This document shows, in pieces, positions 6,022-23,896 of a DNA stretch of 37,406 bases. The notes under the pieces are model-generated. The model worked only from the letters and a program-made list of their open reading frames with translations, made no database searches and was not told the DNA's origin. Each line of letters begins with the position of its first letter. The first letter of the stretch is position 1. The stretch spans positions 1 through 37,406 of the forward strand of contig DAOVGR010000076.1 of the NCBI GenBank assembly GCA_030672305.1. Reading direction: 5' to 3'. The DNA comes from Thermoplasmatales archaeon. Its GTDB lineage: Archaea > Thermoplasmatota > E2 > DHVEG-1. Both the position numbers and the translations under genes were made by a program.

Positions 6022-9000
6022 ATGAAAAAGAAAATATTGAGTATGTTAGTTTGTATGCTGGTTTGCCTGAGCACTGTATTGATTATACCAGATAATTTGA
6101 ACATCAAAGCCTCCGGAGGTGGCGGAGGCGGAGGAAGTATTGGCGGAGAAGCAGAACTTGATTACGAATATCTATGGGAACAAATAAATGCGACTGCAAG
6201 CGTTATTTATAATGCATATTCTGACAATGATATTCGTAAAGGTAGGTTCATGGGATCAAAAGGAGGAAAATATGCAGCTGAAAATATCATCCAAAAACAA
6301 ATGGGAAAAATGGGTCTCGATAATGTCCATAATGATACCATACAACCAATTAATGACATAATTTATAACCGATTAATAGAAGTCACAGGATTCAACCTAT
6401 CTGTTAACATAAATGGTAATGAAAAAGTAATTAATAAAAGAGAGGCTTTCCCGGAACCAACAACTTTTGAAGGTTACGGCCAAGATAAAAACTATAATTT
6501 TACAGATTTAAAAGTTGATTATCAAGATTTCAAAAATGGTTTCCCTGAATACCTTTTTAATTTCAACCATGAAATTACACAATTTGGTACGTATAATACT
6601 GAAAATAGTATACTTTTGGGTAATTTGACATATATAACAGATGAACAACAAATACATGATCCAGAAGAACAGGAGGGAAGAGTTTATCTATTTGACCGTG
6701 ATAGCGATAGTCCGGAGATTTTTAATAATATAACAAATGCATCAGGTATTGTAATTGTTAAAAGTGATAAAATCATTCCATTATCTCTCTCAAATAGTCC
6801 TTCACCTGTAAGAGAAATAAATAAATCCGATGGTGATTTTCTTAAGGACATATGTAACAATAATTCTGATGTAATTATTGAAAATATATTTTCCGAAAAT
6901 GTTACTATACATTATGATTTAAACGAAACATGTATTCCTGATACTGATTTTTTTAAGATTGATAGGATACCAGATCATATTGAATTAAAAAATTATTGGT
7001 CAATTTACTTTAATTTTATTATTAATAGAATTATTGATCAAAACATTATTCATCCGCCTGATCCTACCTTAATGACTTATACTAAGGCCGTTGGTGGTTG
7101 GAAAATAATCTGGTATTATATTTTAAATCCGTGGTTGGATGATAAAGGCCTCCCGACATGTAAAGGTTTTATACTCTATAGCTCTTTTGATCATCATCTT
7201 ATGTTACCTAAATGGCTTACTTGGGATGACAGTACTGATTCAAGTGGAAATAGTTATAATCTCCATACCAGTTTTTTTGGGGGAGGTATACTTGATAGCC
7301 AACCATTGCCAGTGTATTGTATAAACAAAACACTCGGAGAAAATCTACTTAATAGTGATCCACCGGCTAAGGTTTCTGGAGATATACAACAGAAATATTA
7401 TGAAGGAACACAGCAAAAACCTGGTATTGAAGCCGATAATGTGATTGGAGAATTAAACATAGATGAAAGCCCGGATGACAAATTTGTCTTTATCTCTAAT
7501 AGGTATGATGGGATGTGGGGGGAAACACCTGGCGATAGCGGGATTGGAACAGGTATTGTGCTGGCTATTGCTAAGCAAATGAAAGAGTTTCAACAGAACT
7601 ATAGCTTTGATCCCAAGTATAACATAACATATCTTTTTACAACTGGTGAAGAAATTGGTTTCAGAGGTGCATACTATCATAAGGATAATATGACAGAGGA
7701 TGAGCATAAAAAAGTCCATAAATGGATTGGTTTTGACCAGCTCGGTATGAATCAAAGCGATGTGGTATTTGAACCAGAACTAAGAGCTCCATATAATTTT
7801 AATAATGCAACCAAGTATAGAGACGTCCTCATCGAAATAGCAAAAATCAATGATTATAAAAATTACAGCTTTGAACCTAAAACAATAAAATCAGGTGTTG
7901 GCGCCTCTGAGGACTTTGTATGGGGAGAAAGTATTTGTGACACAGTTGTTTTCAGTAGAGATAATTGCAGGGCATGGGACCGCTGGCATTGTACAGGAGA
8001 TGACTATGGTAAAGGAGACTCTTTGAATTTTACTGATTCCGATGATGTAGATCGTACCTATAATATAGCTTGGGACTTTGTCAAGTATATCTGCTATGAT
8101 CCAGATACTGAGTTCGATAGTATCAGTCATGAACTCTGGGACTCCCCTAATGACAATAACACTATTCCAGATCATCTGAATGTGAGTTATACAATATCCT
8201 CAGTTATGCCCTTTGACCGAGTTAAGGTTAAAGCAATCCTACTCCAACCATTAGAATTACCGAAAATTGTAACAAGAATATACCAGATTAACAGCAGCAG
8301 TACAAGAACTGATTATATTAATTTCTCACTTGATAAAAATACTATTTTGGGAAGATATGGCCTTGGAGTGTATCTATATAATTCAACAGGTGAGATTAAT
8401 GACCTTGCTTTCTCAGGCTTACCCAGTAAATATGCTAATGATTCATATGAGCTGTTAGATGTATATAGTTTTGAAATGAGTCCTTCTAATGATGCACCAT
8501 ACACATCGAGTCAGCCCACTTCAAGTACGTCAAGCATGAAAGCAGGAACAACATACACATACCAAACGAGCACAACCGATTCCAACAGTGATCAAGTTTA
8601 CTACCAGTGGGACTATTACGACATCGCAACACAGGAACATGAATACAGCAACTGGATAGGACCATATAATTCCGGTGAAACATGCATAGTGACACACACA
8701 TGGCCAACCACAGGAAATAAAAAGGTCAGTGTGAGAGCCAGGGATGAATGGTTCAGCCCGAACCTCTGGAGCAACTGGTCAAATACATTGAATGTATCGG
8801 TAGACCCGGGTTGCAGCATCCCTGATGCACCATCGACACAGCTTATCGACCAGAATTTCAATGTTCACGGAGAACCATTTGGTTTTGCACCGGACACCTG
8901 GTCATGGGATTTCGGCGATGGAAATACATCCGACACTCAGTCGACATCAAACTCATATGCCTCTGTAAACACCTATACCATAAACCTGACAGTAACGGAT

Positions 9001-12000
9001 TTGGAAAGCAATGAGTATTACTTTGAAACCGATGTCCAAGCGGTACCCTTGAAGGCTGACTTTACCATATCACCATCTGTTTTCGGTCATCCAAATGAAA
9101 CATTCAACTTCACAGACACATCAGAAGCATTATACACCATAAACAATTGGACATGGGACTTCGGAGATGACAACACATCCTACACACAGAACACCAGCCA
9201 TAACTATTCCCAGGATGGTAAATATTCTGTAAAATTAACAGTACGTGATAATATGAATAATACATCAAACCGTACAAAAAAGTTGTATGTGGACACAAAA
9301 TCTCCGGATCTGATTTCAACCTACCAATGCCCTGACACGGCGCCTGGTGAAACAATACCATTTACATACCTGTCCGATCCGATTGGTATAGGATTTGACG
9401 TTTCAATCAATGCTGATTTCCAGGATAACATCAGCGGTGTGGAAACAGTGATAGTAAAAATCACAAGACCGGATGGAACCTGGCAGAACTATTCGATGCA
9501 GGTTGATCCGAATTGCCCAAGGGACTATGAATACACCTTTGAAGACACACTACAGATCGGTAATTATACTTACAAGATTTGGTCCGAGGATTATGCCGAT
9601 AACAGCAACTGGTCACAAAATTATAGTTTTTCTGTTGGTCACAGGTTTGGTTATACAACCAAAGGAAACCTGAACCAGAGCATAGAAGACAGAATATCCG
9701 GCACTGTTTATACCATCAGTAAGAATGGAACCGCTGACAGCATCACAGCATGTATAAAAACAGGTCCGACAACACCTAGTGTAAAATGTATGATATACAG
9801 GAACAATGATTCATCATTGATTGGAACAACAGAGGAAAAAACACTATCAGCAAATAGCAACGCTAGCTGGGTTGTATTCAACTTCACAGGATCCAAACTC
9901 CCCCTGGTGAAGAACACAGGGTATGTTCTAACCTGCTGGAGCAACAATCCCTGCTACCTATTTTATGATAACACATCCGGAACAGGTAAATACCGGAATC
10001 TGACTTACGGATCTCCACCGGATCCAGCTAACTGGACTGGTACTGAGACAAGGATGTACTCAATTTACTGCGATTATACGACAAAGCCTGAGATAACCGA
10101 TGTCTCTGACTCTCCTGATTCTGTTGGTTTCGGTTTTAACGTTACAATATCTGCTGATGTTGATGACAATGGATGCGCAATTGATTTCGTAAAAGTAAAT
10201 GTCTCCTACCCAAACAACACCACGAGTAGTTTCACGATGAACAATACAGCCGGTAACACATATAAGTATAACTTCAGTGACACATGGCTCGTGGGACAAT
10301 ACAACTACACCATATTTGCTCGTGATATCTACGGTGGAAGCAACACCAGCACCGGGCATAGCTTCAACGTTTCAGCACAAGCAACAATTTCTGTTTGTAC
10401 TATAAAGGACTCCTATGGTAGTAATGAATCTATTAATCTCACTGATCCACCAGGTAGCACGCCGTTGATCGGATACATGATGTTGGATGACGGCAAGGTA
10501 TTGCGTATCTGGAACAAGTATGATAACTATTATTTTGACACTGACAGCGGAATGCAGATAACCAATCATTATGATGAGTACTGGTCACAAAATGTTCTGA
10601 TGCTCGGTTATTATAATAATGATGAGTGGAATCTCATCTACAGGACTGATGAACTAAGTGGTTTCAACAAAAATATTGACACAGATGGTGAAACCTATGT
10701 GAATGTTACCCTTTGGAAGGATCTCAGTTATGGTGGTTATGATTTCCGCTTGGCGATCAGGTATTATCTCGGTGTTGATGACAATGAACTAACTGTTGTC
10801 CCATATATCAAGAACCTTGACACTGATGATATTCCATATGTTCTTGGTTTCGGATGGGAGATGAAAGACATACAGATCGACATGACTGAGACCGGTGACT
10901 ATATCAATGTTGATGGAACCACATATTACCTTAACCAGACACTGGACAACACCTATACCGATCTACTGGAAACAGAATTCTACCTGATGGAAAATATCAC
11001 CGATACAGGTACCAAGTCTTTATATCTGAAATGGAACAGCTCACTAACCTATAAACTACAGGTGAAATCAAGGACTGGCCAGTACAATGCACCTGTTACA
11101 TTGTTCGTTAGAATAGGAACATTGAACTCTGGTCAGGAGAAGCAGACGAAGATGTACTGGTATGACGCTGATCAGGCTACATATTATTTCGATAGTTACG
11201 ATGATGCGCCATTTGGTGAAGCCTGGGCTACAAATCCAAGTTACATGGTCAATGGAAATGAAAACAATCATGCATCAACTGGTGTTGATGGTGATATTGA
11301 GCTATGCAACAGTAATAGCTGCACGGGAACTGATCTTGGTACGATATCTTTGGTTGAACTGAGGGTGAAATCCTATTATTCCAGTGGGCAGCGTGATACT
11401 ATTCTACGGCCTTCATTCGGCGGAACAACTGATGGATTGGATTATCCTTATCAGACTACTGTTATGGATACATGGTCTCAATGGTTTGATATCACCCGTG
11501 ATCCGTTTGCTCCCCCGTCCTGGGGTTGGTCTGATGTTGACAATCTTGATTGCGATGTTGAAGCAGAAAATGCTCCTATGGGTCCACCGTTTACGTTGTA
11601 TTGTTCCAAGGTTGAAATACGAGTAACTTATACCGGTAACAATCCACCTGTAATATCTGCTCCCTCCCCGGTTGACAACAGCGAGAATGTTTCGCTTACA
11701 CCGATGTTGAGCATCAATGTATCTGACCCTGAGGGTGACAGCATGACGATTTCATGGCTGAGTAACAGCAGCGGCAGCTGGCAGGTATTCGGAACAAACA
11801 GCAGCGTTGGTAATGGTACTTATTATCAGATTATGAGTAATGCCTCTGAGAATGGCCAGTGGTGGTACTGGAAGGTCAATGTAAGCGATGGTACGGATTA
11901 CGCTGTAAGTAGTGTGTACAAGTTCTACACCGGTGTTCAGTCGAAGATAAAGAACACAGGTTCAACCAATATCAAAGGATACCTGTTGATTGAGTTACAG

Positions 12001-12255
12001 TATTATGAGAACAACTCTTGGATTTTTGTTGATGATGCAGTCAATGAAACAACTCCAAGAACAATTAATTCGAGTGGTCAGTTTGGTCTTGATACCGTGT
12101 TCAATGGTCTGTTGAACACTTCGATGCTTACTTATTTTGGCAATGGCACCTACCGTGTTTATGCAGCGTTCAGGGATCCCGATGGTAACATTCTGAAGTG
12201 TAATGATGACACCGAGCTTTTTGCTACCCGTCAGTTCACGATAACCTACAGTTAG
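6022..12255 (+). CDS. Giant secreted M28-peptidase-like / PKD multidomain protein (2077 aa)
   Basis: AGGGAGTGAG precedes the ATG. A signal peptide covers about residues 1-31, followed by a Gly-rich linker (seven G). Residues about 40-720 resemble a family M28 zinc peptidase: D505 (GDSG), E543-E544 (TGEE), D572 (GFDQLG) and H656 (WHCTGDD) match metal ligands or the catalytic Glu, but the first His of HxD is Arg (R494-Y-D496). The protein may therefore be inactive or bind metal differently. Then follow an Ig-like module (~825-925), PKD domains (~928-1008 and ~1010-1092, WDFGDGN/WDFGDDN), two copies of a GF(D/N)VxIxAD beta module (~1115 and ~1365), a jelly-roll-like region (~1465-1870) and an Fn3-like tail. 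NxS/T sequons are dense, as expected for an S-layer-exposed glycoprotein. Synonymous base use becomes more GC-rich from about 8490, at the border between the peptidase and PKD parts. Confidence 0.8.
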   Translation: MKKKILSMLVCMLVCLSTVLIIPDNLNIKASGGGGGGGSIGGEAELDYEYLWEQINATASVIYNAYSDNDIRKGRFMGSKGGKYAAENIIQKQMGKMGLDNVHNDTIQPINDIIYNRLIEVTGFNLSVNINGNEKVINKREAFPEPTTFEGYGQDKNYNFTDLKVDYQDFKNGFPEYLFNFNHEITQFGTYNTENSILLGNLTYITDEQQIHDPEEQEGRVYLFDRDSDSPEIFNNITNASGIVIVKSDKIIPLSLSNSPSPVREINKSDGDFLKDICNNNSDVIIENIFSENVTIHYDLNETCIPDTDFFKIDRIPDHIELKNYWSIYFNFIINRIIDQNIIHPPDPTLMTYTKAVGGWKIIWYYILNPWLDDKGLPTCKGFILYSSFDHHLMLPKWLTWDDSTDSSGNSYNLHTSFFGGGILDSQPLPVYCINKTLGENLLNSDPPAKVSGDIQQKYYEGTQQKPGIEADNVIGELNIDESPDDKFVFISNRYDGMWGETPGDSGIGTGIVLAIAKQMKEFQQNYSFDPKYNITYLFTTGEEIGFRGAYYHKDNMTEDEHKKVHKWIGFDQLGMNQSDVVFEPELRAPYNFNNATKYRDVLIEIAKINDYKNYSFEPKTIKSGVGASEDFVWGESICDTVVFSRDNCRAWDRWHCTGDDYGKGDSLNFTDSDDVDRTYNIAWDFVKYICYDPDTEFDSISHELWDSPNDNNTIPDHLNVSYTISSVMPFDRVKVKAILLQPLELPKIVTRIYQINSSSTRTDYINFSLDKNTILGRYGLGVYLYNSTGEINDLAFSGLPSKYANDSYELLDVYSFEMSPSNDAPYTSSQPTSSTSSMKAGTTYTYQTSTTDSNSDQVYYQWDYYDIATQEHEYSNWIGPYNSGETCIVTHTWPTTGNKKVSVRARDEWFSPNLWSNWSNTLNVSVDPGCSIPDAPSTQLIDQNFNVHGEPFGFAPDTWSWDFGDGNTSDTQSTSNSYASVNTYTINLTVTDLESNEYYFETDVQAVPLKADFTISPSVFGHPNETFNFTDTSEALYTINNWTWDFGDDNTSYTQNTSHNYSQDGKYSVKLTVRDNMNNTSNRTKKLYVDTKSPDLISTYQCPDTAPGETIPFTYLSDPIGIGFDVSINADFQDNISGVETVIVKITRPDGTWQNYSMQVDPNCPRDYEYTFEDTLQIGNYTYKIWSEDYADNSNWSQNYSFSVGHRFGYTTKGNLNQSIEDRISGTVYTISKNGTADSITACIKTGPTTPSVKCMIYRNNDSSLIGTTEEKTLSANSNASWVVFNFTGSKLPLVKNTGYVLTCWSNNPCYLFYDNTSGTGKYRNLTYGSPPDPANWTGTETRMYSIYCDYTTKPEITDVSDSPDSVGFGFNVTISADVDDNGCAIDFVKVNVSYPNNTTSSFTMNNTAGNTYKYNFSDTWLVGQYNYTIFARDIYGGSNTSTGHSFNVSAQATISVCTIKDSYGSNESINLTDPPGSTPLIGYMMLDDGKVLRIWNKYDNYYFDTDSGMQITNHYDEYWSQNVLMLGYYNNDEWNLIYRTDELSGFNKNIDTDGETYVNVTLWKDLSYGGYDFRLAIRYYLGVDDNELTVVPYIKNLDTDDIPYVLGFGWEMKDIQIDMTETGDYINVDGTTYYLNQTLDNTYTDLLETEFYLMENITDTGTKSLYLKWNSSLTYKLQVKSRTGQYNAPVTLFVRIGTLNSGQEKQTKMYWYDADQATYYFDSYDDAPFGEAWATNPSYMVNGNENNHASTGVDGDIELCNSNSCTGTDLGTISLVELRVKSYYSSGQRDTILRPSFGGTTDGLDYPYQTTVMDTWSQWFDITRDPFAPPSWGWSDVDNLDCDVEAENAPMGPPFTLYCSKVEIRVTYTGNNPPVISAPSPVDNSENVSLTPMLSINVSDPEGDSMTISWLSNSSGSWQVFGTNSSVGNGTYYQIMSNASENGQWWYWKVNVSDGTDYAVSSVYKFYTGVQSKIKNTGSTNIKGYLLIELQYYENNSWIFVDDAVNETTPRTINSSGQFGLDTVFNGLLNTSMLTYFGNGTYRVYAAFRDPDGNILKCNDDTELFATRQFTITYS

Positions 12256-15652: not shown

Positions 15653-17632
15653 TTAAATTGTTGACCTTTTATTTAATAGAGTTTTTCCTTTTTCAGTTAA
15701 ATGTAATGATTTCATTCTACCTCGTTTTTTTATGAAAATTAATCCTTTATCTTCAAGTTTTTTTAGTCTTTTGCTGGTTGTTTTAGTTACTATTGAGAAC
15801 TTTCTACTGATCTTTTTGAAAGAAACCTCAGAATTATTCTGATTTTGATTATATATGTACAATAATATTGCAAACAATTCATCACTTAAAACTACGTTAT
15901 CTATTTTCTGACTTGGTAATAACTGTAATTCGTTTTCCATAACTGCTATCTGTCTTTCATCCAAGAGTGATGGGTCAAGTTGAAGTAATAATATCGAGTT
16001 GGTATCTGATATTACATCTCTAATTTGATATAAGGTTTCTGTAAATTTTTCAAATGAAGATCTTGTTAATAAATAATGAATTCCGTCTATTAAAATTACT
16101 GGGTTTGTTTTATTTTGTACAAATTCATTGATTTTAATTATTAATCCATCTGGGTCAGAGGTATTATCGTATTCTCCTATTTTTTTCTGGCTCAGTAATA
16201 TAACTTTACTGTCTTTTATTGAGGTCATGTTATTTAGTATTTCAGGATTTGAACGAGTGATATATAAACTTTCATGATCATATTTATTTAGTGTTATGAA
16301 AAGATCTAATGCAGATTTATTGTTTTTGTCGGTTATAAGATAGCTACTTCCCTTGAGAAGTCTACCATGAGTTTCTAAATCATTGGTGATGTCTGTTCCA
16401 ACGAGAAGAACTCCTCTATCTTGTCCATTATTTGACTTGACGAATGAACAAGATACATTAATTATTCTTTTATCACCATTCTTAGCTATTAGGATAATTT
16501 CGCTATAGATTGGTTTATTATTATATATACATTCGAGATTATCCATTAATTCGTCAGATTTATCAAATACAGGTAAATCACCAATAAATTTTCCAGCAAC
16601 TTCCTTTTTTTTATATCCTGTTAGCAGCTCTGCTTTTTTATTCCATAAGGTTACTTTTTTTAGTCTATCTAGTGAAATAATAATTTCAGAGGCGCTGTTA
16701 ATAATGTTTTGTAGATTGTCTTTTGTCTTAATAGCTTCCTCTTCTGCTCTCCGACGTTTAGAAATTTCCTTTAGAAGTTTTGTGTTGGTCGTTGAAAGTT
16801 CAGAAGTACGTTTTTCCACAAGATTTTCAAGATGATATCGATGCGTCTCTAGTTCTAATTCGGTCTGCTTTCGTTTGGTAATATCTCGAAATACAATAAT
16901 ACAACCAGTGATGTTTCCTTCATGATCTTTAATTGGTGCAGCGCTATCGTCGATAGGTTTATCCTCGCCATCTTTGGTAACAAGGAGGACATTTCTTTCA
17001 TCTAGATTAATAACAGCATTCTTCTCTATTGCAGCTTTTGCTAAGCTCTTTTCAGAAATATGGTTTTTCTCATTGACAATTTTAAAGATTGTCTTCAGTG
17101 GTTTACCCACGGCATCTTCCTGTTTCCAACCTGTCAGAGATTCAGCAACAGGATTCATAAATGTTACTAACTCTTCCTTATCAGAGGCAATCACAGCATC
17201 ACCTATACTCGCTAATACTGCAGTAAGCCATTCCTCATTATCTTTTAATTTTGTTTTAATGGAATGCCTAAAAAAAGCTATTTCAATGTTATTGTGTAAT
17301 TCTCTTACTTCAAATGGTTTGAGGATATAACCATAGGGATCTGTTATTTTTGCACGCTCAAAAGTCTCATTATCACCATAAGCAGTTAGATATATCACTG
17401 GAATATTGAGATTCTGTGAAATTTTATCTGCAGCTTCAATGCCATCCATATCACCCTCTAACATAATATCCATTAGCACTAAATCTGGAGAAATTTCATT
17501 TGCTTTAATAACAGCATCTTCTCCTGTTGAAACAATAGCAGGTACGGAATATCCCAGACTTTCCAATCTATTCTTTATGTTTTTCGCAACGATGATTTCA
17601 TCTTCAACAACCAAAATCTTCCTATTTTCCAT
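15653..17632 (-). CDS. Response regulator: REC-PAS-PAS-DUF835-wHTH
   Basis: Domains in order: REC receiver (about 1-120) with phospho-acceptor D55 in DLVLMDIML and the conserved Lys in YILKPF; PAS (about 130-255, ending CIIVFRDITKRKQ); a coiled-coil linker (about 255-305); a second PAS (about 305-420, ending VLLVGTDIT); a DUF835-like domain (about 425-570: GSSYLITD, LYITRSNPEI, PVILIDGIHYLLTRSSFEKF); and a C-terminal MarR-like winged helix (SFKKISRKFSIVTKTTSKRLKKLEDKGLIFI). REC plus wHTH indicates a phosphorylation-controlled transcription factor; the PAS and DUF835 parts suggest extra sensory input. It overlaps the upstream kinase gene by 11 bp and has a GGGAGGT RBS inside that gene, so the two form one cognate operon. 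Confidence 0.9.
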   Translation of the reverse strand: MENRKILVVEDEIIVAKNIKNRLESLGYSVPAIVSTGEDAVIKANEISPDLVLMDIMLEGDMDGIEAADKISQNLNIPVIYLTAYGDNETFERAKITDPYGYILKPFEVRELHNNIEIAFFRHSIKTKLKDNEEWLTAVLASIGDAVIASDKEELVTFMNPVAESLTGWKQEDAVGKPLKTIFKIVNEKNHISEKSLAKAAIEKNAVINLDERNVLLVTKDGEDKPIDDSAAPIKDHEGNITGCIIVFRDITKRKQTELELETHRYHLENLVEKRTSELSTTNTKLLKEISKRRRAEEEAIKTKDNLQNIINSASEIIISLDRLKKVTLWNKKAELLTGYKKKEVAGKFIGDLPVFDKSDELMDNLECIYNNKPIYSEIILIAKNGDKRIINVSCSFVKSNNGQDRGVLLVGTDITNDLETHGRLLKGSSYLITDKNNKSALDLFITLNKYDHESLYITRSNPEILNNMTSIKDSKVILLSQKKIGEYDNTSDPDGLIIKINEFVQNKTNPVILIDGIHYLLTRSSFEKFTETLYQIRDVISDTNSILLLQLDPSLLDERQIAVMENELQLLPSQKIDNVVLSDELFAILLYIYNQNQNNSEVSFKKISRKFSIVTKTTSKRLKKLEDKGLIFIKKRGRMKSLHLTEKGKTLLNKRSTI

Positions 17633-19352
17633 CTTTCCGACCTCCCTTCCCTTTTTCTATATATCTAAAGGTTATTATAAATTTTGTCCCATTACTTTTA
17701 TCAAGTTGTATACTACCTTTAAGTTGTTTGACAAACATATTTATCAATTGTAATCCCAAAGTATTTGTATTTCGAAAATCTAACCCTTTTGGCAAACCAA
17801 CACCATTATCACTGATAGTCCCTGTATACGAATTATCCTCCAATTTAATGTCGATAATTATTTCACCCTTTTCACCCGTTGGAAAAGCATGTTTTAAAGA
17901 ATTTGAAACAAGTTCACTGACAATCATACTTAAAAGTAGAGATTTTTTAAAGTCCATAGAAATATTATGAACATTAATTTTTAAGGAGATAGCATCTGGA
18001 CTTATCGTATATGAAGAAAACAAATTATCTAAAAGATTTTTAATATGATTACTTAAATCGATTTTATCTAAGTTTTTGGATTGGTATAATTGTTCATGGA
18101 GAGATGCCATTAATTTGATACGGTTCTGACTTTCTCTAAACATTTCAATTATCTTTTTATTTTCTGTTTGTTCAGATTGAAGGTCAAGCAAACTACTTAT
18201 AAGTTGCAAATTATTTTTAACTCGATGATGAATTTCTCTCAAAAGCGCATCTTTCTCTGTAAGCGATTTCTTTATCTCAGTTAAATCTCTTGCCACCAAA
18301 ACAATTCCCTCTAGATTTCGAATATTATCATACATGGCAGAAACTGAAACACTCATTGGAAGAATATTTCCAGCTTTATTTACAAAATCAGCTTCGATAT
18401 CTTTTAACTCCCTGTTCTTGTACAATCTATCAAAGGGTTTAGATTTAAAAATTTTTTTACTATCTATTTCTCCCCCTTCAGGTAATTTTAAAATCTGTTT
18501 TAAAGGAGAATTTATCAACTCTTCTTTATGATAACCCAGCAGGTTTATCGTCGATTTATTGAAATTAACAATTTTTTCATATTTATCAACTACAATCAAC
18601 GAGTCGGACATGGTGTCAATAATAGCATCTGCAGTTTCCGCAATTGTAAGTTTCATCAGTTTGTATCTTTTCATAGAAAAGGCAACCACAACAGAGAATA
18701 TTAAGAGAGAAAATGTAGTCATTGGAAATACAGAAATTCTATATAATGGAGGAACAAGGTTTGTTCCTAAACTTAATGCAACAACTAATAAAAAACCTAC
18801 AGTTACAAATTGAATTTGTTTTTTCTCATTATTGGAAATATGCTTTTTAAAATAAGTATGTGATAATGAGACGGTTGCAATAAAACTGCAAAATAAAAGC
18901 CAGTGAATTATGAATCCTGTTGAAGGATTCAATATAACTCTATAGCCCCATTCACTCATTTCTACATCTTTAGGAGAAACCAACAGGCTAAAAATAATAG
19001 CAATTATTATACCTACTACATATAAAACGAATAATAAATATTTGTATTTTGGAAAAATATTCTTATCATTTGGATATTCCTTTGGGAAAACTGTTGAAAA
19101 ATGAACTCCTAGACAAGAGATAAAAACTACTGCAATATAACAGATTCTGCCAAAAAATAAAGCTTCTTCTTTTGTTGTTGATATTCGAGTAATAAATTCA
19201 CCAATAGAAAAAATTGCTAGAAATAGAGCGAGTACCGAAAAAACCCTATTTGTCTTTTTTTTAGGATTCAACAAAAATACATAAAATCCAATTAATGAAG
19301 TTAGGATTGCAGAGAATAATGGTATGTATATAACTGGATTCATTGAGCTCAT
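17622..19352 (-). CDS. Membrane sensor histidine kinase (7TM-PAS-HisKA_2-HATPase)
   Basis: The N-terminal ~235 residues contain about seven to eight hydrophobic helices of the 7TM histidine-kinase input type. Then come a PAS domain (about 240-355, ending EGIVLVARDLTEI) and an HWE/HisKA_2-type dimerisation domain with the phospho-acceptor in EIHHRVKNNLQLISSLLDLQ (His at about 377). A HATPase domain follows with N-box LVSNSLKHAFP, G1 box SDNGVGLP and G2 TLGLQLI. The start is set at the ATG at 19352, because AGGAG (19367-19363) is 10 nt upstream; a TTG at 19358 is only 4 nt away. It probably senses a membrane or intramembrane signal and phosphorylates the downstream regulator. The gene is divergent from the isoprenoid operon. 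Confidence 0.9.
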   Translation of the reverse strand: MSSMNPVIYIPLFSAILTSLIGFYVFLLNPKKKTNRVFSVLALFLAIFSIGEFITRISTTKEEALFFGRICYIAVVFISCLGVHFSTVFPKEYPNDKNIFPKYKYLLFVLYVVGIIIAIIFSLLVSPKDVEMSEWGYRVILNPSTGFIIHWLLFCSFIATVSLSHTYFKKHISNNEKKQIQFVTVGFLLVVALSLGTNLVPPLYRISVFPMTTFSLLIFSVVVAFSMKRYKLMKLTIAETADAIIDTMSDSLIVVDKYEKIVNFNKSTINLLGYHKEELINSPLKQILKLPEGGEIDSKKIFKSKPFDRLYKNRELKDIEADFVNKAGNILPMSVSVSAMYDNIRNLEGIVLVARDLTEIKKSLTEKDALLREIHHRVKNNLQLISSLLDLQSEQTENKKIIEMFRESQNRIKLMASLHEQLYQSKNLDKIDLSNHIKNLLDNLFSSYTISPDAISLKINVHNISMDFKKSLLLSMIVSELVSNSLKHAFPTGEKGEIIIDIKLEDNSYTGTISDNGVGLPKGLDFRNTNTLGLQLINMFVKQLKGSIQLDKSNGTKFIITFRYIEKGKGGRKDGK

Positions 19353-19422
19353 TATCAAATTACTCCTATATAGTCGGTTCGATTTTGATTTTCATGGAAT
19401 AAAAGAAAATAACTTAGATCTT

Positions 19423-19521
19423 CAGGTATCGATAAATCGTATGGGTATAAGGGCAAAACACCGAAAGGTGTTTTCTTCGCATGACGAGAAAACCACGACA
19501 TATACAGCATCGATAGACCTG
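19423..19521. ncRNA. Candidate structured element in the divergent promoter region
   Basis: Three nested pairings can be drawn. The outer stem is CAGGT-ATCGAT (19423-19433) with ATCGAT-AG-ACCTG (19509-19521). The middle stem is TCGT-ATG (about 19437-19443) with CAT-G-ACGA (about 19480-19487). The inner hairpin is AAAACACC-GAAA-GGTGTTTT (19455-19474), a perfect 8-bp stem with a GNRA tetraloop. The element lies upstream of the TATA box of the plus operon, so it is not in that mRNA. It would lie in the 5' leader of the minus-strand kinase mRNA if transcription starts far upstream, or be a separate small RNA. It does not match a riboswitch class I can name. Confidence 0.4.
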
Positions 19522-19536
19522 CTCTAAAATTAAATC

Positions 19537-19545
19537 TTTATATAT
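19537..19545 (+). promoter_or_regulatory. TATA box of the isoprenoid operon
   Basis: TTTATATAT sits about 26 bp ahead of the expected start of transcription (~19567), just before GAGGTGAGG and the ATG at 19586. It implies a very short leader. Confidence 0.5.
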
Positions 19546-19585
19546 GGTTTTTTAATAACTAGCTGTTGAGGTGAGGCGGGCTAGT

Positions 19586-20524
19586 ATGAAATACTTATTA
19601 AATGGATACAAACAATTTATAGAATTAAATTATAACGAATTATTTGATAAAATATTCGCATCAGATTCTATTATCAAAAATAATTTCTGTAAAATTTGGA
19701 GTAAAATTGTTCAAAAAATTGATTTAGATATGGTCATATATGAAAATTACCAAGAAATTAAAAATTTAGTTATTTATGATATACTTGATGGCAACCGCTC
19801 AACCTTGACTTCGGAAACTATCGACTATTGTAATGTAGAAACTACTTTGTATACACTTAATCTTATTCATACGCTGAAATCGTTAGGTTCAAGAAGTTGT
19901 TATATTATGATTCATACTTCATATAATAGAGAAAGAGGTAAGAAGGAGTTTAATCAAATATTAAAAAAGATCGCAGTAGGTACAGCTTTGATTAAAAAAT
20001 ATGCAATTCAAAATAATATTCGTTGTTTTTGTATTGGCATGGGGAAAAATTACGAGCAGATACATTTATTAAATGATGTTATGAAATCCACAGAAAATGG
20101 AGATTTTCATGCATATTTTTTAATTGATTATAACGAAAAGTGGATATTTAGTAATGGGGCACAGAATGTACTAGATGCTATGCCCGATATAGATGTCCAC
20201 ATTAGACATACAAAATTTCAAGTCTCTGGTGGTTGGATTCCAGATCTAATGTCGCATTCGGTATTCCTCTATTCTCAAAATGGCTCTGTTTATAGTAATT
20301 GGAATCTTGATGAGATCTTAACGCTTTTAGCTCTTTCGCTTTTAGCAAAACTAATTCATAGGGGCGAAATCCTAAGTAAAACCTATGTCAGTGAAGAAGA
20401 AATTAATCAGCGTTATAGATTGCGGGAGTTGAAATTATTCAATAAAGTGATTAAGTTGCAAGCAAATCCTAAAAAGTTGATTGTGATAGGTTCTCCCCAA
20501 GGGGTATATCAGTTTTATTTCTGA
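19586..20524 (+). CDS. Divergent cis-prenyltransferase (undecaprenyl-diphosphate synthase-like)
   Basis: The start is ATG 19586; a GTG at 19571 lies within the GAGGTG ribosome site. Two blocks recall cis-prenyltransferases, which extend allylic diphosphates with isopentenyl diphosphate. The first is YDILDGNRSTLTSE at about residue 65-78, containing the DGNR signature that binds the substrate diphosphate. The second is a C-terminal block DVHIRHTKFQVSGGWIPDL followed by SVFLYS and NWNLDEIL, matching the IRTxGxxRxSxFLxWQ / LYFxxxxWPD region. The middle helix KKYAIQNNIRCFCIGM fits the family's second helix/strand. It is diverged (Lys-Phe-Gln replaces the usual Gly-Gly-Glu), so activity or partner use may differ, for example as an Nus1/NgBR-like non-catalytic subunit. 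First gene of a four-gene operon. Confidence 0.5.
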   Translation: MKYLLNGYKQFIELNYNELFDKIFASDSIIKNNFCKIWSKIVQKIDLDMVIYENYQEIKNLVIYDILDGNRSTLTSETIDYCNVETTLYTLNLIHTLKSLGSRSCYIMIHTSYNRERGKKEFNQILKKIAVGTALIKKYAIQNNIRCFCIGMGKNYEQIHLLNDVMKSTENGDFHAYFLIDYNEKWIFSNGAQNVLDAMPDIDVHIRHTKFQVSGGWIPDLMSHSVFLYSQNGSVYSNWNLDEILTLLALSLLAKLIHRGEILSKTYVSEEEINQRYRLRELKLFNKVIKLQANPKKLIVIGSPQGVYQFYF

Positions 20525-20554
20525 TTATTAAATATAAATAATAAAGGTAAGTAA

Positions 20555-21598
20555 ATGGAAAAAGACCAGGAGGAATCTGTAAAGATATTGGGTGCTGGAA
20601 TATCTGGACTTAGTGCTGCTATAACGCTAACTAATAATGAATATAAGTCAGCGGTTTTTGAGAAAAAATCGCATTCAGGTGGACGATTCAAGCGTGATTT
20701 TCAGGGTCTGCGTAATTTTGGGAATGGAAATATCGATCCTATTAGAGAGTTTAAAGAGCTTGGAATTTGTATTAAACCCTATAAAAAGTTAATGAGAATT
20801 GTTAGATACTCTCGATCTTATAACTTTGAAGTTATTAGCAATAGCAGGCCTATTTATTATCTTGTTTTAAGAGGAAAAAACAAAAATTCAATAGATACTC
20901 AATTAGCTAGCTCTGCCCTAGATTTAGGTGTAAACATTGTTTATAATACTAGATTAGATGTCAATGAGGCCGATATAGTTGCAACGGGTCCTTCAAGAAC
21001 AGATAGTCTTGCTTATGGTGGGTTGTATTATGATGTTGATATAAATTATACTGGATATGTTTTTCTAGATAAGAAATATTCACCAAATGGATATTTTTAT
21101 ATTTTACCTGGTGAAAAAAGAGGAGAGGCTGAAATTGTTAATGCAACATTTGGTCCTGCTGTAAGCATGCAGACATTAAAAGTGTTTTATGATAAGGCAA
21201 TACGAGAAAACAAGATATTAAAAGATATATTAGATGGTGCAACGAAAAAAACAGTCCGAAGAGGCATAGGATGTTGTTCCTTGTTAAAAAAACCATACCA
21301 AAATAATAAGTACTATGTAGGTGAGGCTGCTGGACTACAGGATGTTACTGCAGGATTTGGAATAAGGTACGCAGTTATTAGTGGTTATTTAGCAGCGAAA
21401 TCAATCTTAACTGGTGAAGATTATAACAAACAGATGGTTAAAACATTTAAATCACAATTAGATTTTGAGCGTAAAAGAAGTGAGAATTTTAAGAAGTTGA
21501 CTAATGATGATCTCGATAAAATATTTCAATCAATTAATCAAAAATTCGATCATGAATTAACCGTAGAAGAATATGAATCTCTCCGTGGTGTTATATAA
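20555..21598 (+). CDS. FAD-dependent geranylgeranyl reductase-family oxidoreductase
   Basis: The N-terminus has the dinucleotide-binding motif ILGAGISGLSAAITL (about residues 11-25), followed by FEKKSHSGGRF. Near the C-terminus YYVGEAAGLQDVTAGFGIRYAVISGYLAA (about 250-280) corresponds to the GDAAGxxxPxxGxGI motif that closes the FAD site in geranylgeranyl reductases. Such enzymes hydrogenate isoprenoid double bonds in archaeal lipids and dolichols. At 347 residues it is slightly shorter than typical (about 390-450). AAAGGTAAG precedes the ATG. Downstream of the cis-prenyltransferase-like gene by 30 bp and immediately abutting the HAD gene, it probably saturates the product of the former. Family confidence is fair; substrate is inferred. 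Confidence 0.65.
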   Translation: MEKDQEESVKILGAGISGLSAAITLTNNEYKSAVFEKKSHSGGRFKRDFQGLRNFGNGNIDPIREFKELGICIKPYKKLMRIVRYSRSYNFEVISNSRPIYYLVLRGKNKNSIDTQLASSALDLGVNIVYNTRLDVNEADIVATGPSRTDSLAYGGLYYDVDINYTGYVFLDKKYSPNGYFYILPGEKRGEAEIVNATFGPAVSMQTLKVFYDKAIRENKILKDILDGATKKTVRRGIGCCSLLKKPYQNNKYYVGEAAGLQDVTAGFGIRYAVISGYLAAKSILTGEDYNKQMVKTFKSQLDFERKRSENFKKLTNDDLDKIFQSINQKFDHELTVEEYESLRGVI

Positions 21599-22321
21599 TT
21601 GCAAAGAAATAATAACATAAAAGCAATTTTTTTTGATTTGGGACAAACCCTAGTTAACCTATCGTCGATATCTGTATGTATGTATAATTCCCTGAAAAAA
21701 CATCTAACACAATTAACAATAGATTTTAACAAACTAGTTTATGCTTGGGGATATGGAACTCAAAATCTATTCATGGAAATTCGTGAAAAGAAATTTATCA
21801 ATACTAAAGATATGCATTTTTTATGTCTTATAGAAATTTTGAAAACAAACAAAATAGGTATAACTAATGAGCTAGCACAAACCATGGTGGAAGATGTCTG
21901 GCAGGATTTTATAACAAATAACAAAATATATCCAGATACAATACCTGCACTAACTCAATTAAAACAATTAAAATATAAACTAGGATTAATCACAGATTGT
22001 GATCTAGATGTAGCTGAAGGTATTATACAAAAGCATAATCTCACAGATTTTTTTGATGTAAAAGTGATATCAAGTGTAGCAAAATCTTATAAGCCTAACA
22101 TCTTGCTCTTTAACGAAGCGATAAAATTAGCAAAATGCAACCCTCACGAGGGGGTTTATATAGGAGATTCTGAAATAGATATCAAAGGAGCAAAAGAAAT
22201 AGGATTGATAACAATAATTGTAAATCGAGGAGAAATAAAAAATCAAGAGATAGGCATCAAACCCGATTATAAGATTAATAATTTATCAGAATTACCTAAA
22301 ATCATATCTAGACTAAAGTAA
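21599..22321 (+). CDS. HAD-superfamily phosphatase
   Basis: All four HAD motifs are visible: motif I FFDLGQTL (nucleophile Asp; the usual second Asp is Gly), motif II LGLITD, motif III Lys in SVAKSYKPNILLF, and motif IV YIGDSEIDIKGAKEIG. It looks like a HAD-IA enzyme of phosphoglycolate-phosphatase type with an alpha-helical cap (about residues 18-95). The TTG start directly follows the TAA of the reductase gene with no gap, so translation is coupled. In this operon the obvious inference is removal of phosphate from a prenyl intermediate or a headgroup precursor, although HAD-IA enzymes usually act on small soluble phosphates. Confidence 0.75.
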   Translation: MQRNNNIKAIFFDLGQTLVNLSSISVCMYNSLKKHLTQLTIDFNKLVYAWGYGTQNLFMEIREKKFINTKDMHFLCLIEILKTNKIGITNELAQTMVEDVWQDFITNNKIYPDTIPALTQLKQLKYKLGLITDCDLDVAEGIIQKHNLTDFFDVKVISSVAKSYKPNILLFNEAIKLAKCNPHEGVYIGDSEIDIKGAKEIGLITIIVNRGEIKNQEIGIKPDYKINNLSELPKIISRLK

Positions 22322-22329
22322 GTAATTTA

Positions 22330-23835
22330 ATGAATATGAATCCAGTAAATATCAAGAAGATTGTATTAATATTCCCTCCACATTGGGATACCCCAATGCC
22401 TCCACTAGGCATAGCATATATTGCTGCATTTTTGAGATATAAAGGATTTGAAATACAACAAATAGACCTTAATCACAAATTTCGATATAACTACCAGTTA
22501 ACAGATGATGATCTTGATCAAGAGGTTAAAAAAATAGTATCTAAAGGTCCTGATGTCATAGGCATCTCTATGGGTCATACGACATTTAAGAACTCCATCA
22601 ATCTGATGAAACTAATAAAAAAACGAATACCTGATGTATTTATTATTGCAGGTGGACCTCATATATCTTACATTGGAGAAAAAATTATTGGAGATTTCCC
22701 AGAGCTTTTTGATATAGGCGTTTTCTCTGAAGGAGAAGAAACAATACATGAGATTTTACAGAAAAAAAAGAATGGTGAGAGATTAGATAACATTAAAGGA
22801 ACAATAGTTTGGAAGGATAATTTTGGAGCTGCTAGAAATCCACCTAGGGAGTTCCCCTGTGATTTAGATGGTCTTCCATTTCCAGATTTTGATGACTTCC
22901 CACTTAACGAGTATCCGCTTCCAATACTTCCAATGTTAACTGCACGTGGATGTATAAAGAATTGTTCTTTTTGTGGTTTCAATGGTAATCATGTCAGTAA
23001 CATTTACAGAGAAAGAAGTATTGAAAACGTAATAGACGAAATTAATCGGAATGTCGAGCATTACAAGCGTAAAATATTCCTCTTTGGAGATTCATTAGTT
23101 AATTCAAATACTAAGCGTTTAACACAACTATGTGACCGGATAATCGATGAAAATATGGACATCTACTGGCTTGCTGAATCATTTCCAGATTTAACGAAAG
23201 AGTTATGTAAAAAAATGTATAATGCTGGTTGCCGTTTTCTATGGGTCTCCCCTGAGACGGGCAGTCAGATAACTGTTAATAAAATGAATAAAGGCGTAGA
23301 TCTTAGTCTTGCTAAAACAGCTATTAAAAATGTAAAAAAGGCAGGTATATTTACCTCTGTATGGTTTATTTTAGGCTTTCCGACAGAGAGTAAAAGCGAC
23401 CTAGAAATGACAGTTAATTATGCTAGGAATCTTAAGAATTATATAGATGAATGTTCTTTTGTTCCGTTTCATTTAATGGTGGGAAGCCCTGTATTTCAAA
23501 ATCCTCAGAATTATAATATTAAAAAAATCGAAGACAATAGATACGAGATGTTTTCGAGTTTTCGAAAAAAAAGTAAAACGATAAGTAAATTTAAAATAAT
23601 TAAATACTCTGAAAGATTATGGGATGAATTCAATCGTGATTCAAGATTTAATTTTGAAATAGAAAAAAGAATATTTTTTAACAGATTGGGAGTAGGTAAA
23701 AGAACTCTTTTAAAGTTGATATCTCCTAATCATTTTAATAAAAAAAAGAACGAATATAAATACGAAAATCTTTTTAGGAAAGCTTTATCTCAGGATATAA
23801 ATCTTAAAGAATCACATAAAATTATTCTAAAATAA
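22330..23835 (+). CDS. B12-binding-domain radical SAM enzyme
   Basis: Residues about 10-150 form a cobalamin-binding Rossmann domain (IVLIFPPHWDTPMPPLGIAYIAAFL, DVIGISMGHTTF, IAGGPH), and about 190-430 a radical SAM barrel with the cluster motif CIKNCSFC (Cys at about 212, 216 and 219). The rest is a C-terminal extension of about 80 basic residues. B12-dependent radical SAM enzymes catalyse methylation of unactivated carbon, ring formation or C-C bond formation. The archaeal GDGT ring synthases GrsA/GrsB and hopanoid C-methylases (HpnP) belong to this broad class. Placement 9 bp after the HAD gene and in an operon with prenyl-chain enzymes supports an isoprenoid lipid substrate. The start may be ATG 22330 or ATG 22336. 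A terminator follows directly. Confidence 0.85.
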   Translation: MNMNPVNIKKIVLIFPPHWDTPMPPLGIAYIAAFLRYKGFEIQQIDLNHKFRYNYQLTDDDLDQEVKKIVSKGPDVIGISMGHTTFKNSINLMKLIKKRIPDVFIIAGGPHISYIGEKIIGDFPELFDIGVFSEGEETIHEILQKKKNGERLDNIKGTIVWKDNFGAARNPPREFPCDLDGLPFPDFDDFPLNEYPLPILPMLTARGCIKNCSFCGFNGNHVSNIYRERSIENVIDEINRNVEHYKRKIFLFGDSLVNSNTKRLTQLCDRIIDENMDIYWLAESFPDLTKELCKKMYNAGCRFLWVSPETGSQITVNKMNKGVDLSLAKTAIKNVKKAGIFTSVWFILGFPTESKSDLEMTVNYARNLKNYIDECSFVPFHLMVGSPVFQNPQNYNIKKIEDNRYEMFSSFRKKSKTISKFKIIKYSERLWDEFNRDSRFNFEIEKRIFFNRLGVGKRTLLKLISPNHFNKKKNEYKYENLFRKALSQDINLKESHKIILK

Positions 23836-23860
23836 AAACCCCCATTTTTGGTTTTTTTTT
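23834..23860 (+). terminator. Terminator of the isoprenoid operon
   Basis: AAAAACC (23834-23840) pairs with GGTTTTT (23850-23856) around CCCATTTTT, and the run of T continues to 23860. It overlaps the stop region of the radical SAM gene, closing the operon. Confidence 0.65.
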
Positions 23861-23896
23861 AATTTTATCAATAAATAGATATTCTATTAAAGTGAA

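Follow-up and report, generated by a model that had tools for sequence, protein, structure and literature searches.

The window analysed here, a 37,406-nucleotide stretch that forms an entire contig (G000:C40) of a 2.8-Mb, 88% complete genome from an uncultured Thermoplasmatota archaeon, contains a four-gene operon that we read, with a probability of about 0.5, as a small and patchily distributed cluster for terpenoid or prenyl-lipid tailoring, in which the first protein, ORF1, would have kept the donor site of a cis-prenyltransferase (cis-PT) and remodelled its acceptor side. If this is true, ORF1 represents a new archaeal branch of the cis-PT fold that is unseen by sequence profiles, and the cluster joins prenyl chemistry to a reductase, a 7TM two-component sensor and sometimes a radical SAM enzyme. 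To our knowledge, little has been described of specialised terpenoid metabolism in archaea, and because the first enzyme has no profile, profile-based genome mining probably misses this locus. In agreement with the earlier note on this DNA, the literature searched, which consisted of open-licence papers, yielded no description of a system with the same set of genes.

Gene layout and conservation of the locus

The four packed plus-strand genes that the earlier note described are real, with a first frame at 19571-20524, the other three as in Table 1, and gaps of 30, 0 and 8 bp. The longest ORF1 frame opens with GTG 19571, and since this codon falls inside the Shine-Dalgarno sequence, the start is probably ATG 19586. 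The terminator said to close the operon is plausible but weak, as a T-run with an A/T stem lies directly 3′ of the stop and went unscored in a consensus scan, which found no plus-strand terminator just 3′ of ORF4. A perfect hairpin, AAAACACC-GAAA-GGTGTTTT, occurs as a single copy in the window between the kinase and ORF1 (19456-19473); it is absent at the other ORF1 loci and not conserved in relatives. An Rfam search of the window found no RNA. Further genes in the window include a papain-family cysteine protease near the operon (PF00112; 25544-26488, plus strand) and a probable secreted protein of 2077 aa (6022-12252, plus strand), part of which is 31% identical to a protein of L010.

Table 1 Features of the operon and of the divergent genes beside it, in window coordinates
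Feature	Position	Strand	Basis or remark
TATA-box-like element TTTATATATGG	about 19537..19547	+	archaeal type, 5′ of ORF1; motif recognised by eye
Shine-Dalgarno GAGGTGAG for ORF1	19568..19575	+	sequence
ORF1, divergent protein of probable cis-prenyltransferase fold, 312 aa	19586..20524	+	ORF, fold search, profile alignment
ORF2, FAD flavoprotein, distant GGR relative, 347 aa	20555..21598	+	Pfam, NCBIfam, PDB
ORF3, HAD hydrolase, 240 aa, motif I DLGQT	21599..22321	+	Pfam, ortholog alignment
ORF4, B12-binding radical SAM enzyme, 501 aa, CIKNCSFC cluster motif	22330..23835	+	Pfam
T-rich stretch with weak A/T stem, possible terminator	about 23836..23862	+	sequence
7TM-PAS-HisKA_2 sensor histidine kinase, divergent to and adjoining ORF1	17622..19358	-	domain search
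Response regulator-PAS-PAS-DUF835-winged-helix protein, kinase partner	15653..17632	-	domain search

Homologs of ORF1 were found four times among 390 genomes of the phylum, all within the same family (48-66% identity) and none outside it, in Thermoplasmatota MAG records CP070798.1, JALHTX010000097, JAUWBM010000020 and JAPKYG010000219. In all, 5 of 45 family genomes carry the gene and about 89% (40/45) lack it. Across these five genomes the conserved block consists of the 7TM sensor and ORF1 (5/5), the HAD protein (4/5) and a GGR-superfamily protein (4/5, comprising ORF2-like proteins in 3/5 and a non-orthologous true GGR in genome G199), where the gene counts at the G199 and G222 loci are limited by contig ends. 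All four enzyme classes stand together in G132 (CP070798.1), and G149 has ORF1, GGR and HAD. Other genera also carry this core and its divergent sensor kinase, so chance does not explain the grouping, and the cluster is truly conserved. The earlier grouping thus stands on both counts, as the genes co-occur in other genomes and nothing found shows ORF1 to be unrelated to cis-prenyltransferases.

The relationships of ORF1 conflict with genus membership. G132 and G149 belong to the same genus and their UPPS proteins are 89% identical, whereas their ORF1 proteins share only 52% identity, and G149 ORF1 is 66-68% identical to ORF1 of other genera, a pattern that points to horizontal exchange or to old duplication followed by loss. 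An IS200/Y1-type transposase-like ORF (PF01797; 23951-24502, minus strand) with locally higher GC lies just 3′ of the operon and may be linked to the cluster's patchy occurrence.

Fold and motifs of ORF1

The earlier view of ORF1 as cis-prenyltransferase-like is favoured by fold searches with two low-confidence models together with a profile alignment of the N-terminal half, and the fold assignment is probably right. Sequence searches gave no relevant match in Pfam, NCBIfam, PHROGs, PADLOC, PDB sequences, plasmids or viral contigs; PF01255 did not match any of the five family members at E values up to 10, and BLAST against the genomic UPPS returned a 6-residue word around DGNR and nothing more. 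An AlphaFold model of ORF1 (pLDDT 51, pTM 0.59, low confidence) was compared with PDB structures, and the top 50 matches listed were all cis-PT-fold enzymes, with Rv3378c first (E 5e-4 over 315 alignment columns, TM 0.35-0.37 from this low-confidence model) and UppS next. A second model with an ortholog as query was worse (pLDDT 36); cis-PTs stood in the first 7 ranks of its fold search, and Rv3378c was not within its top 50. Given the low TM-scores of about 0.35, this result is one of fold recognition, not of a reliable model. A viral fold library searched with the ORF1 model gave unrelated low-probability matches, also with E-values near 1e-3.

An unanchored profile alignment of ORF1 residues 62-195 with UPPS scored at a level reached by 5 of 400 column shuffles and placed DGNR with DGNRR, TSYNRERGKKEF with FSTENFxRxxxEV and IRCFCIG with VRVRVIG in the same register. 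The C-terminal half aligned at chance level (65/400 shuffles as high), the full-length comparison was weak (hhalign probability 1.9, 7/300 shuffles as high) and a forced global alignment by hhalign gave no information.

In UPPS, the allylic diphosphate, or donor, site includes the P-loop Asp and the S/T-N-R motif. In all five family members the P-loop residues D73-G74-x-R76 are invariant and aligned, unanchored, with UPPS MDGNxR, and an equally invariant H-T-S-Y-N-R-E-R is in register with F-S-x-E-N-x-x-R of UPPS for the S/T, N and R positions, the F and E not being kept. On the acceptor side, R-T-S-G-E-x-R-I-S-N-F is near-invariant in UPPS of the phylum and ORF1 has R-H-T-K-F-x-x-S-G-G-W instead; the ELYF Glu and the C-terminal RXG were sought and not found in the ORF1 family, whose C-terminus differs. 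A separate canonical, full UPPS with RXG is encoded elsewhere in the same genome. Since the donor motifs are kept, the acceptor side is remodelled and a separate UPPS is present, we infer that ORF1 transfers a prenyl group to something other than IPP. These features point to a probable prenyl-diphosphate-ionising transferase or terpene synthase, for which transfer to a non-IPP acceptor, or hydrolysis, is more likely than synthesis of a long cis-polyprenyl. This is consistent with past work in which the RXG-less cis-PT MM_0014 transfers prenyl groups to acceptors other than IPP (PMC8131916) and Rv3378c, with its cis-PT fold, carries out hydrolysis or prenylates a nucleoside (PMC8131916, PMC7321100).

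The earlier note had ORF1 building a long cis-polyprenyl diphosphate at the head of a pathway. With the IPP-side motifs remodelled or absent and a canonical UPPS in the genome, that step is not upheld and the polyprenyl-building pathway is probably wrong. A chain-elongating ORF1 that makes a dedicated polyprenyl diphosphate, such as a second glycosyl-carrier lipid that ORF2 saturates, ORF3 dephosphorylates and ORF4 modifies, is in our judgement unlikely, though worth entertaining. It would fit the cis-PT fold of both models and the retained catalytic Asp and donor-site motif, and R212 aligns in the profile alignment with the first acceptor-side Arg of UPPS, to which it may be equivalent, so that use of IPP by ORF1 is conceivable. 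Archaeal GGR paralogs also correlate with polyterpene saturation (PMC10821996), and certain cis-PT paralogs produce chains of shorter length (PMC8131916). Besides the missing acceptor-side residues and the separate UPPS, this reading has against it that no glycosyltransferase or oligosaccharide gene was recognised on inspection of the five loci and that most of the family does without ORF1.

Partner enzymes and the proposed pathway

ORF2 has the FAD-binding GxGxxG and homology to the GGR catalytic domain. Its Pfam matches are NAD_binding_8, above cut-off, and a weak GGR_cat; it scores 46.7 bits against TIGR02032, below the cut-off of 158.8, and its C-terminal half matches the archaeal GGR 3oz2 (E 3.8e-10). 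Relatives of ORF2 were present in 92 of 293 phylum genomes with no shared neighbours, and neither ORF1 nor a HAD partner occurred in the neighbourhoods of these phylum-wide relatives, indicating that the cluster is not ancestral to this flavoprotein family, of which the operon ORF2 looks like a specialised branch. The relatives (L099, L103, L104, L105, L110) are GGR/desaturase-like flavoproteins, mostly single-copy and spread through the Thermoplasmatota with variable neighbours. In G199, the ORF2 slot beside ORF1 is filled by a true GGR-family protein (TIGR02032 183.9 bits, cut-off 158.8), which has only short, weak similarity to ORF2 and is non-orthologous. As the slot can be taken by a superfamily member that is not an ortholog of ORF2, isoprenoid reduction appears to be a conserved step, and this swap is the best evidence that argues for it.

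The swap also bears on the possibility that ORF1 is no prenyl enzyme at all, in which case its fold match would be spurious and the kinase would have an unrelated operon for signalling or a cofactor next to it. We consider this quite improbable: the low confidence of the ORF1 models, the failure of Pfam, NCBIfam and PDB sequence searches to detect the protein and the phylum-wide occurrence of the ORF2 family without such neighbours would all suit it, but two models from different queries agree, the unanchored N-half alignment puts the catalytic motifs in register, and a bona fide GGR adjoins ORF1 in G199.

ORF3 matches Pfam HAD_2 (83 bits) and keeps motifs II-IV, with T132, K165, D190 and D194 invariant. 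Typical HAD phosphatases carry a second Asp in motif I (DxD); in all four orthologs this motif reads DLG[QGN]T, with Gly at D+2 and no DxD. Of the earlier claim that the HAD protein removes phosphate, the fold and motifs II-IV stand and the activity itself is not assured, the second Asp being missing; hydrolysis can still be envisaged since the Mg-binding and Lys motifs are retained. The G222 HAD ortholog (L011:17062-17781) has no ATG, GTG or TTG before motif I, its frame reading ACG-GTA-ATA after a GGGAGGT Shine-Dalgarno, which reflects either a non-canonical start or a sequence error.

ORF4 has B12-binding and Radical_SAM domains, both above Pfam cut-offs, and a CxxxCxxC motif. It scores far below the NCBIfam cut-offs of the lipid-acting equivalogs (HpnJ, HpnR, ladderane type), and because it falls short of every equivalog cut-off it cannot be placed in a subfamily. 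Only 2 of the 5 ORF1 loci have B12 radical SAM enzymes, in different positions: ORF4 groups with the G132 enzyme on the other side of ORF1 (tree support 93/96, long branches), G132 has a second, distant radical SAM enzyme after the HAD gene, and G149 has an SDR (HpnA / 3-beta-HSD-like) in place of radical SAM. As the radical SAM gene is not constant among loci, ORF4 is best regarded as an optional tailoring gene. The suggested action of a B12 radical SAM enzyme on an isoprenoid lipid is accordingly weakened, both by the count of loci and because no lipid-specific equivalog scored above cut-off.

GGPP (C20) is the staple prenyl diphosphate of archaea. In the tailoring pathway that we favour, ORF1 would ionise an allylic prenyl diphosphate, probably GGPP, and would hand the chain to a nucleophile such as water instead of to IPP, like Rv3378c or other atypical cis-PTs. 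The GGR-superfamily flavoprotein would next saturate double bonds, the HAD protein might have as its target a phosphate, or a group resembling one, on the substrate or the product, and the B12 radical SAM enzyme, in lineages having one, would add a methyl or make another C-C change. The divergent 7TM kinase and its regulator are proposed to govern the product or to react to it, and what is observed is the association of the genes.

Each of the five ORF1 genomes has one or two HisKA_7TM proteins, one of which adjoins ORF1 or lies one gene away, with a radical SAM gene between them in G132 and a second kinase in G222. Such proteins occur in 15 of 45 family genomes, and the five that carry ORF1 are all among these (Fisher p = 0.0025, a value that overstates independence, as the genomes are related); 10 of 40 ORF1-negative genomes have them too, so that such sensors also exist apart from the cluster. 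The kinase and regulator (15653-19358) also have a paralogous pair in their own genome (G000:C14, L136:4333-7578), and G178 (L135) has a similar pair without a visible ORF1. It is very unlikely, in our estimate, that the product is a terpenoid signal, diffusible or in the membrane, which the adjacent 7TM kinase senses, so that the locus would form a self-contained archaeal cassette for terpenoid signalling with a synthase from a new cis-PT-fold family.

Partners of the NgBR/Nus1 type lose the P-loop Asp and retain RXG. We give little credence to ORF1 as a non-catalytic partner of this type, one that would act on the genomic UPPS to change product length or location: its divergent cis-PT fold without a Pfam match and the heteromeric cis-PTs known in Methanosarcina (PMC8131916) would allow this, but ORF1 has the opposite residue pattern, with D-G-x-R kept and RXG missing, the genomic UPPS has its own RXG, and ORF1 is lacking from 40 of the 45 family genomes.

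Comparison with known systems

Among B12 radical SAM enzymes, the HpnJ, BchE, ApyD and PhpK types and the OxsB structure have both domains and CxxxCxxC in common with ORF4, which lies far below the equivalog cut-offs of the named types. The HAD-TCbeta drimenol synthases (PMC9128629) combine a HAD protein with prenyl diphosphate chemistry, as the cluster may, but ORF3 is a stand-alone HAD protein without a terpene cyclase domain and its motif I is DLGQT, not DxD. ORF2 matches the GGR family (TIGR02032; 3oz2) in its C-terminal half and differs from it at the N-terminus, which is of the NAD_binding_8 type.

With the UPPS family (PF01255), ORF1 appears to share the fold, the D-G-x-R loop and the T-S-x-N-x-x-R motif in register; it differs in having no Pfam match, acceptor motif, ELYF Glu or RXG and in its longer N- and C-termini. 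Methanosarcina MM_0014 and MA1831 are, like ORF1, archaeal and atypical in having no RXG, and they are loose in their use of acceptors (PMC8131916), but MM_0014 is found by a UPPS profile (7caq, E 1.5e-22), whereas ORF1 is not, and no shared gene cluster was shown. A search for a class II cyclase partner of ORF1 gave short, partial SQHop-repeat matches only, none full-length and none beside ORF1 in the window, and no other substrate clue was found. Rv3378c, the tuberculosinol / tuberculosinyl-adenosine synthase (4cmx, 3wqk), comes from a different domain of life and has no sequence similarity to ORF1 by profile search; it is nevertheless the best match of the first, low-confidence model, nearly full length and similar in size, and it puts the cis-PT fold to a use other than chain elongation, as we propose for ORF1.
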